Shown here: positions 30,115 to 32,672 of the stretch, in pieces
Layout: each line of letters begins with the position of its first letter
Numbering within the stretch: position 1 is the first letter of the stretch
Assembly (NCBI RefSeq): GCF_002224265.1
Contig: NZ_CP012881.1
Coordinates: 2,542,001-2,606,000, forward strand
From: Vibrio vulnificus NBRC 15645 = ATCC 27562
Lineage (GTDB): Bacteria > Pseudomonadota > Gammaproteobacteria > Enterobacterales > Vibrionaceae
Direction: 5' to 3'
DNA: 64,000 bases
The notes under the pieces: model-generated
Databases searched by the model: none
The model's input: only the letters and a program-made list of their open reading frames with translations
Told to the model about the DNA's origin: nothing
Position numbers and translations under genes: made by a program

Positions 30115-32391
30115 TTATAGAGATTCAGTGAAAGTACGTGCGATAACGTCAGCTTGTTGCTCTGCAGTTAGAGAGTTAAAGCGAACTGCGTATCCAGATA
30201 CACGGATAGTTAGCTGAGGGTACTTCTCTGGGTGCTTAACTGCGTCTAGAAGCGTGTCACGGTTTAGAACGTTAACGTTCAGGTGTTGACCGCCTTCGAT
30301 GCCTGCTTCGTGGTGGAAGTAACCATCCATTAGGCCAGCAAGGTTAGCGCGTTGAGCGTTCTCATCTTTACCTAGTGCGTTAGGTACGATAGAGAAAGTG
30401 TAAGAGATACCGTCTTTCGCGTGAGCAAATGGCAGTTTACCTACTGAAGTTAGTGACGCTACAGCACCTTTTTCATCACGACCGTGCATTGGGTTTGCAC
30501 CTGGTGCAAATGGAGCACCTGCGCGACGACCGTCTGGCGTGTTACCAGTCTTCTTACCGTATACCACGTTTGATGTGATAGTTAGGATAGACTGAGTAGG
30601 AACAGCATTACGGTAAGTATTTAGCTTACGGATCTTGTTCATGAACACTTCAACAAGTTCACAAGCTATGTCATCAACGCGAGCATCGTTGTTACCGAAT
30701 TTAGGGTAGTCGCCTTCGATTTCGAAGTCGATTGCTACGCCATCTTCGTCACGAACTGGTTTCACTTTCGCGTACTTGATTGCAGAAAGTGAGTCAGCTG
30801 CGATAGACAGACCAGCGATACCACATGCCATTGTACGGTATACGTCACGGTCATGTAGAGCCATTAGTGCAGCTTCGTAGCTGTACTTGTCGTGCATGAA
30901 GTGGATTGCGTTTAGTGCAGCAACGTATTGCTTAGCTAGCCAGTCCATGAAGTGGTCTAGGTTGCTCCACACTTCGTCGAAGTTTAGTACTTCTGAAGTG
31001 ATCTTAGGCATTACTGGGCCAACTTGCATTTTTAGCTTCTCATCAACACCACCGTTGATTGCGTAAAGCATCGTTTTTGCAAGGTTTGCACGAGCGCCGA
31101 AGAACTGCATTTGCTTACCAACAACCATTGGAGATACACAACATGCGATTGCGTAGTCGTCAGAGTTCATGTCTGGACGCATTAGGTCGTCGTTTTCGTA
31201 CTGGATTGAAGAAGTATCGATAGATACTTTCGCACAGAACTTCTTGAAGCCTTCAGGTAGTTGCTCAGACCAAAGTACAGTGATGTTTGGCTCTGGAGAA
31301 GGACCCATAGTGTATAGAGAGTTTAGGAAACGGAAGTTTGAACGCGTTACTAGCGTACGACCGTCAAGACCCATACCACCCATAGATTCTGTTGCCCAGA
31401 TTGGGTCGCCAGAGAATAGATCATCGTACTCAGGAGTACGTAGGAAACGAACCATACGTAGTTTCATTACGAAGTGGTCGATCATTTCCTGAGCTTCAAC
31501 TTCAGTGATCTTACCAGCAGCGATATCACGCTCGATGTACACGTCTAGGAACGTAGAAGTACGGCCTAGAGACATTGCAGCACCGTTTTGAGACTTAACA
31601 GCCGCTAGGTAGCCGAAGTAAGTCCATTGGATAGCTTCTTGTGCAGTTTCAGCTGGGCGAGAAATATCGTAACCGTATTTCGCTGCCATCACTTTCATTT
31701 GACCTAGAGCGCGGTGTTGCTCAGCAATCTCTTCACGAAGTTGCATTGTCATTTGAAGATCTTCACCGTTCTCAAAACGCTCTTGTAGAGACTTGAATTG
31801 AGCCAGTTTGTCCTTCATTAGGAAGTCGATACCGTAAAGTGCAACACGACGGTAGTCACCGATGATACGACCACGGCCGTAAGCGTCTGGAAGACCAGTT
31901 AGAACACCAGACTTACGACAAGCTAGGATATCTGGAGTGTAGATATCGAATACGCCAGCGTTGTGTGTTTTGCGGTATTCAGAGTAGATTTTAGAGATTT
32001 GAGGGTCTAGTTCACGACCGTAAACTTTACAAGAACCCTCAACCATGCGGATACCACCGTTAGGGATGATAGCGCGTTTTAGAGGTGCGTCAGTTTGTAG
32101 ACCAACGATAGTCTCTAGATCTTTTTCAATGTAGCCTGCATCGTGAGCAGTGATGGTAGAGATTAGGTCAGTATCGAAATCAACTGGAGCGTGAGTTGAG
32201 TTCTCAATTTTGATACCTTCCATTACCTTAGCCCAAAGCTTGTTGGTTGCTTCAGTACCTTCAGAAACTAGGAAAGATTCGTCGCCTTCGTACGGAGTGT
32301 AGTTCTTCTGAATGAAATCACGAACGTTTACTTCGTTTTGCCAGTCACCTGCTGCAAAACCTTCCCAAGCTTTAGCAAATTGCTCTGCCAT
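30115..32391 (-). CDS. pflB: Formate C-acetyltransferase (pyruvate formate-lyase)
   Basis: The 758-residue glycyl-radical enzyme splits pyruvate with CoA into formate and acetyl-CoA during fermentation. The paired active-site cysteines are in IACCVSP near residues 415-417 and the radical glycine in RVSGYAVRF near 733. Length and sequence match the E. coli enzyme. The gene uses a narrower codon set than its neighbours, as expected for a highly expressed protein. Its 175-nt predicted leader is strongly structured (see 32414-32534). No focA lies upstream; a DUF3360 gene does, with a terminator between. Confidence 0.98.
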
Positions 32392-32413
32392 GACATACCT
32401 ACCTTTTTAGTAG

Positions 32414-32474
32414 AAAAAACACGTACTGTTGTGGCTGTTGAGCCAGCCATCCTCTCATTAAAGAGGAGCAGTAC
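32414..32474 (-). promoter_or_regulatory. Three-way-junction element in the pflB leader
   Basis: On the minus strand a closing stem GTACTG/CAGTAC (32469-32474 with 32423-32428) encloses two hairpins: CCTCT-AGAGG (32451-32466, 6-nt loop) and GGCTG-CAGCC (32433-32448, 6-nt loop). GTG and six T (32414-32419) follow, then the AAGGTAGGT ribosome site. It could be an attenuator or a translation-control element. Folding was done by eye. Confidence 0.5.
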
Positions 32475-32478
32475 ACTC

Positions 32479-32534
32479 TTATGAATAACAATATGTATCG
32501 ATTTGCGAACTGTTCATAAAACGATACATATTGT
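32479..32534 (-). promoter_or_regulatory. Inverted repeat / possible pseudoknot in the pflB leader
   Basis: A perfect 13-bp inverted repeat, ACAATATGTATCG at 32488-32500 and its complement at 32522-32534, encloses a 21-nt loop. Seven loop bases (32513-32519) are perfectly complementary to seven bases just 3' of the stem on the minus strand (32479-32485), which would form an H-type pseudoknot in RNA. At DNA level the arms could instead be a double operator. Confidence 0.55.
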
Positions 32535-32573
32535 CACTGAGTTTCATGTCTTGCCTTATTAACTTTCCTTCAG

Positions 32574-32613
32574 GGTATACTAAAATTTTTTTGCAAACCT
32601 TAAACTAAATCAA
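32574..32613 (-). promoter_or_regulatory. Predicted FNR-dependent pflB promoter
   Basis: On the minus strand TATACC (32574-32579) fits a -10 element, and an FNR-like box with one perfect half (TTGAT) and one half matching 3 of 5 spans 32600-32613. Its centre is about 40 bp before the predicted start near 32567, the position of class II activation. No -35 hexamer is needed in this class. Confidence 0.45.
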
Positions 32614-32638
32614 TAAAAGCTAAAAAAACTCAATAAAA

Positions 32639-32672
32639 TTTGGGTGGTGACCAGCACCACCCAAACTTTTTT
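32639..32672. terminator. Terminator of the DUF3360 gene
   Basis: Perfect 11-bp hairpin TTTGGGTGGTG-ACCAG-CACCACCCAAA; T-rich on both strands. It separates the DUF3360 gene from pflB transcription. Confidence 0.8.

Follow-up and report, generated by a model that had tools for sequence, protein, structure and literature searches.

A conserved structured leader RNA precedes pflB in Vibrio vulnificus and many other Vibrionaceae

The pflB gene of Vibrio vulnificus is preceded by a leader RNA that is widespread in Vibrionaceae and is not listed in Rfam. In the 64,000-nucleotide stretch of DNA analyzed here (the window), a perfect 13-bp inverted repeat, ACAATATGTATCG/CGATACATATTGT, is located on the minus strand at 32488–32500 and 32522–32534, exactly where an earlier note on this DNA had placed it. 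The repeat forms the core of P1, a 17-bp hairpin in the 5′ leader of pflB. On the 3′ side of P1 the leader continues with a three-way junction, in which helix P2 closes P3 and P4, followed by a U-run and then by P5, a small hairpin that overlaps the Shine-Dalgarno (SD) region. The junction, the U-run and the SD hairpin are conserved together with P1 and lie between P1 and the start codon. We hold with high confidence that the element is a cis-acting structured leader RNA. As the best explanation overall, we consider it probable that P1 is the first hairpin of a conserved structured leader that acts in cis on pflB, a gene with its own promoter and a leader of ~175 nt. The structured pflB leader RNA suggested in the earlier note is upheld insofar as the structure exceeds chance and has no Rfam match, but the note had missed the junction, the U-run and the SD hairpin.

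Pyruvate formate-lyase is encoded by pflB on the minus strand at 30115–32391 (TIGR01255, 1332.8 bits against a cut-off of 994.2). With the start codon at 32391, the repeat falls 88–143 nt before the pflB start, in agreement with the earlier note. The upstream neighbor is a DUF3360 gene (PF11840, 32680–34227, minus strand), and an LpxR-family outer membrane protein gene (PF09982, 28915–29895, minus strand) lies downstream of pflB. A sequence scan lists a terminator-like site at 32635–32669 (minus strand), between the DUF3360 gene and the pflB unit. The promoter region contains a conserved box, TTGATTTAGTTTAA, at 32600–32613 (minus strand), which we take to be FNR-like on the basis of 8 of 10 positions matching the FNR consensus. 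Of 109 classified loci, near-duplicates counted, 77 have a form of this box no more than 900 nt before pflB. It is possibly an anaerobic activator site of pflB, its center being ~37–40 bp before the expected transcript start. A possible −10 region, TAGTAT/TATACC, was assigned by eye from the sequence and its conserved context at 32574–32582 (minus strand). The transcript start predicted from it, also read by eye, would be at ~32567–32570, which would place P1 inside the transcript. A promoter at ~32567–32570 is absent from the output of the consensus promoter scan.

For the comparative analysis, 80 named loci and 30 more of the same genus were collected, giving 110 loci. A pflB start was obtained for 100 of the 110, yielding 94 distinct leaders, of which 69 were aligned (alignment A1). 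Where named, the A1 rows are from Vibrio and Aliivibrio, mostly Vibrio, with one labeled Vibrionales. The other 25 leaders (Photobacterium, Enterovibrio, Grimontia, Ferrimonas, enterobacterial and some Vibrio loci) were omitted by eye as divergent or without the leader, and several of these later match the covariance model R1. In all 69 aligned loci the leader element is directly before pflB. Since shuffled alignments ignore kinship, a tree built from 1500 nt of pflB was used to place the changes.

The 5′ arm of P1 spans 17 nt at 32522–32538, containing the 32522–32534 arm of the repeat, and the 3′ arm is at 32484–32500, both on the minus strand. In the V. vulnificus sequence the 17 pairs are extendable to ~24. 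The hairpin is not a product of chance, since the window has 5 loci with perfect arms of at least 13 nt spaced by 3–60 nt and 20 dinucleotide shuffles have none. Across the 69 aligned leaders, standard pairs make up 92.3% of 1171 cells, with changes on both sides at 7 of the 17 pairs. The number of double-change cells is 57, compared to 16.2 in shuffled alignments, and none of 500 shuffles reached this value; further pair types, one of five shuffle measures, were matched by 57 of the 500. When the changes are placed on the pflB tree, P1 shows ~29 double (compensatory) events against 0–4 in six slid controls, in which the 3′ arm was moved by 1 to 3 columns. The same tree gives 52 loss events, and one pair in the middle of the stem is open in 32 of the 69 rows. 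The median length of the longest unbroken stretch of pairs is 11, and 10 of 69 rows have a stretch of at least 22. In 68 of the 69 rows the pair probability of P1 is >0.5. G-U pairs occupy 128 of 1173 cells and occur in 66 of 69 rows, and the loop length varies from 16 to 35 nt, so a paired RNA accounts for P1 better than a DNA palindrome does. We conclude that P1 is a genuine RNA helix, whose pairing is kept by compensatory changes in leaders of the Vibrio type.

The earlier note had described P1 and a second helix as an H-type pseudoknot and had considered chance to be a poor explanation for both helices together. The loop-to-flank complement on which this reading was based does exist: in V. 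vulnificus the loop bases TTATGAA (32513–32519) are exactly complementary to TTCATAA at 32485–32479. The second helix is not maintained in relatives. Over its 7 pairs and 69 rows, 59.3% of cells are paired against 58.7% after shuffling, and there are 6 double-change cells against 7.7; on the pflB tree, 2 double events are far outnumbered by 76 losses. A loop-to-flank complement of at least 7 nt is found in 3 of 69 leaders, with ~1.9 of 69 expected from shuffled loops, and one of at least 6 nt in 8 of 69, with ~6.4 expected, so these complements are about as long as those of shuffled loops. Two of the bases also overlap the extension of P1 itself. An H-type pseudoknot formed by P1 and the 7-bp loop-to-flank helix is thus extremely unlikely, and the helix was rejected. 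Of the two helices, the hairpin withstands the comparison with chance, while the seven-base match stays near the shuffled level. An alignment and covariation check of pflB upstream regions, of the kind that the note had proposed, gives the same division, as P1 covaries and the second helix does not.

The junction is closed by P2, whose 5′ strand GTGTACTG (32469–32476) and 3′ strand CAGTACGT (32421–32428), both on the minus strand, are assigned from covariation and the tree. In A1, 92.9% of P2 cells are paired, with 10 double events on the tree; the pair probability is >0.5 in just 46 of 69 rows. Within P2, the 5′ strand of P3 (32461–32467, minus strand) pairs in the predicted fold with its 3′ strand at 32450–32456 (minus strand; predicted fold, covariation and tree). 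Over the five P3 pairs scored, 71.3% of cells are paired, and the tree gives 22 double events and 46 losses. Hairpin P4 (32432–32449, minus strand; covariation on the tree) has 15 double events and 18 losses over the five pairs scored. Its apical loop at 32438–32443, GCTCAA (GCUCAA in the RNA), is present in 55 of 69 rows. Pairing of this loop with the first pflB codons is uninformative, the codons being near-identical whether or not a row has the CTCAA loop. A U-run shared by relatives (TTTTTT, 32414–32419, minus strand) follows; a run of at least 5 T is found shortly 3′ of P2, within a few bases, in 64 of 69 rows. P5 (CTACT/GGTAG, 32399–32413, minus strand) covers the SD region, with 98.9% of its cells paired and a pair probability >0.5 in 58 of 69 rows. 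It is nearly invariant, and therefore covariation is uninformative for it.

Taken over P2–P5, there are 113 double-change cells against 45.6 in shuffled alignments, a value that none of 500 shuffles reached. On the pflB tree, P2–P4 show 47 double events, compared to 5–15 in four slid controls. RNAalifold applied to A1 predicts P1, P2 and P5 and does not predict P3 and P4; these two helices were drawn from the window's own sequence and then scored separately. In Vibrio-type leaders, compensatory changes have preserved the pairing of the three-way junction P2–P4. The bases of the junction appear variable in the 23 rows inspected. For the V. vulnificus leader, all helices are predicted at high probability from 25 to 42 °C.

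The covariance model R1 comprises 145 positions and was built from 26 rows of an alignment, A3. When R1 was searched directly in 90 of the 110 loci, 81 matched at E < 0.001. The model-fitted alignment A6, obtained from the search of these 90 loci, holds 75 matches and shows double changes at 29 of 40 pairs in 74 distinct rows, in a fit that itself favors the structure. R1 gives one match each in 35 of 37 same-genus genomes, V. vulnificus included, and no match in 24 genomes of other families of the order (E ≤ 0.001). Across the family, one match each was found in 101 of 150 genomes, covering 7 of 13 genera (E ≤ 0.01). These genome searches used stricter filters, by which weak cases may be missed, and their counts are of matches to the covariance model. 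With R2, a model of the junction only, no second copy was found in the V. vulnificus genome even at E ≤ 10. The conserved structured leader sequence is single-copy where found.

The presence of the leader differs with the arrangement of pflB and focA, the latter identified from a short protein motif within 900 nt upstream. R1 matches 81 of 86 scored loci in which this search gave no focA motif, and none of the four scored focA-type loci (L070, L079, L088 and L099; three Vibrionaceae and one Serratia). The non-matching loci without the focA motif are L082, L085, L092, L094 and L100. One of them, L085 from Vibrio sinus, has the promoter box upstream of pflB and no R1 match; it offers a natural comparison, and by this case the leader is dispensable. 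A T-rich stretch and CTACT...AGGTAG are found before pflB in six Vibrionaceae focA-type loci (L070, L079, L088, L093, L096 and L097), of which none of the three scored with R1 matches. Because they are kept in these loci, the U-rich stretch and P5 appear to belong to a broader region around the start of pflB translation, and P1–P4 to be the part that goes with a free-standing pflB. In five of the enterobacterial loci inspected, L104–L107 and L110, AAGGTAGGTG is kept and CTACT is not.

Divergent leaders were seen in six Enterovibrio and Grimontia loci (L069, L076, L084, L089, L091 and L095), in which a long hairpin of unrelated sequence replaces P1. It is followed by two adjacent hairpins; the first of them is P4-like and has the GCTCAA loop in half of the loci (L069, L076 and L084). 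A GUAC-type stem closes the hairpin pair in the lowest-energy fold of four of the six loci; in the other two, L069 and L076, the partner of the first GUAC is the start region.

The main rival explanation is an attenuator or riboswitch, in which P2 with its branches and the U-run would make up an intrinsic terminator whose formation is governed by a ligand or factor via P1 or the P4 loop. The proximity of the T-run to P2 noted above is in keeping with such a terminator, as a three-way junction with a frequently conserved loop is with a riboswitch. The T-rich stretch before CTACT is nevertheless also present in all six Vibrionaceae focA-type loci, and since it occurs there without an R1 match in the three scored, the U-run occurs independently of the stem. 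The terminator scan, which covers loops of 3–8 nt only, does not list the P2/U-run stem, and no conserved alternative pairing was noticed in an incidental view of the leaders. The variable appearance of the junction bases in the 23 rows and the single match of the junction model in the V. vulnificus genome do not favor a riboswitch. We consider this explanation unlikely, at a level that still deserves attention. A target for a base-pairing small RNA, reached via the P4 loop or P2, is improbable: the GCUCAA loop is well kept in the aligned rows, but FnrS (RF01796) is not found in the V. vulnificus genome and the other candidates show no clear signal. In a weak test that ignores accessibility, 16 of 200 shuffles were as good as or better than Spot 42 (the strand resembling the known RNA), and 78 to 172 of 200 were as good as or better than RyhB and GcvB on either strand. 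Spot 42 is therefore the nearest of the small RNAs, without a clear pairing excess, and the tuning by a small RNA raised in the earlier note gains little from this comparison.

The alternative that the note itself had named, a DNA-binding regulator, would make the P1 arms half-sites of an operator for a dimeric or tetrameric transcription regulator. The arms are indeed palindromic and the promoter box is 60–75 bp away, but an arm spacing of 16 to 35 nt, the G-U pairs present in 66 of 69 rows and the covariation of the neighboring helices leave this reading with very little probability. Leader peptide attenuation can hardly be credited either. It would require translation of a 22-codon ORF that spans P1 in V. 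vulnificus, has a plausible SD sequence and ends between P1 and P2. Counting ATG starts only, there is no upstream ORF of at least 7 codons in 32 of 69 rows and no single ORF common to the other 37, some close relatives sharing one; no conserved short ORF is thus found across the 69 rows, P1 loop lengths do not come in multiples of three, and the candidate is disfavored. An RNA thermometer is disfavored as well, as the weakest pair of P1, P2 and P5 is predicted to stay at 0.93 or above from 25 to 42 °C. At 15 °C the predicted pairing of P2 and P5 falls to ~0.6, which is the opposite direction to a thermometer. The folding predictions accordingly carry no sign of the temperature tuning that had been suggested.

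Rfam 15 gives no match in the window at the gathering threshold, and at E ≤ 5 the leader is matched by microRNA and snoRNA models alone, far below their gathering scores. The pfl motif RF01750 has no match either in the window at the gathering threshold or in the leader at E ≤ 5. No description of a Vibrio pflB leader RNA was found in titles and abstract openings among the literature matches listed. The accessible portions of PMC9732341, PMC6554313, PMC2864571, PMC8632094, PMC8577284, PMC5371410 and PMC11109978 do not mention a Vibrio pflB leader. The earlier note, which knew of no described leader RNA of this kind, agrees with these results. As far as Rfam and the literature matches listed show, the RNA family is new; as a kind of thing it is ordinary.

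The 5′ UTR of E. coli ompA is a long structured leader that sets mRNA stability or translation. PMC5371410 describes the adhE leader as processed by RNase III. Like these two leaders, the pflB leader has stable hairpins ahead of a single-stranded stretch and a ribosome site; unlike them, its fold consists of P1 and a three-way junction, and it is known here from sequence alone. The pfl motif RF01750 is associated with genes of purine and formyl-THF metabolism in four phyla (PMC2864571) and later became the ZTP/ZMP riboswitch (PMC7337938). It is likewise a leader RNA able to precede a pfl gene, whereas the Vibrionaceae leader was seen before pflB and has no Rfam match. The manA-II motif (PMC11109978) shares a three-stem junction, and the genes it precedes include one for a glycyl-radical-enzyme activator. 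By its description, it differs in being reported from Leptotrichia and in having two hairpins after it, of which the second is apparently a terminator. For E. coli pflB, PMC5371410 places an RNase III site between pflB and pflA, 3′ of pflB, although one passage says upstream. Post-transcriptional control of pflB through double-stranded RNA, here inferred, would be common to both systems. The E. coli site is not in the leader, in contrast, and the enterobacterial loci that were classified, a set without L109, carry an upstream focA motif.

On the mechanism we are more tentative: the leader might set the lifetime of pflB mRNA and its ribosome loading, which we regard as possible rather than probable. 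Acting in cis, P1 could serve as a 5′ guard that slows the entry of 5′-end-dependent RNases, or it could be an RNase III processing site. The latter idea is weakened by the shortness of the unbroken stretches of pairs in P1, given above. For E. coli, PMC5371410 reports that cleavage by RNase III stabilizes or opens the pflB and adhE mRNAs; because the E. coli site is described between pflB and pflA, this precedent is an analogy only. P2–P4 would pack the remainder of the leader compactly, so that the U-rich stretch and P5 over the SD stay exposed for ribosomes to land on. A trans-acting RNA or protein may dock at the GCUCAA loop of P4.

A further-reaching and rather doubtful idea is that the leader belongs to a Vibrionaceae-specific class of regulatory RNA, which would sense a fermentation signal and switch pflB after transcription begins. 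The signal would be pyruvate, formate, acetyl-CoA, redox state or an anaerobic small RNA acting on the GCUCAA loop. If true, a sensing RNA would replace control that focA-pflB operons obtain differently. Model R1 is ready for use, and focA-pflB versus single pflB provides a natural comparison. Pyruvate formate-lyase is a main carbon gate of fermentation. A leader kept by compensatory changes at pflB genes separate from focA suggests that this gate is also controlled post-transcriptionally, in a way not described among the literature matches listed.
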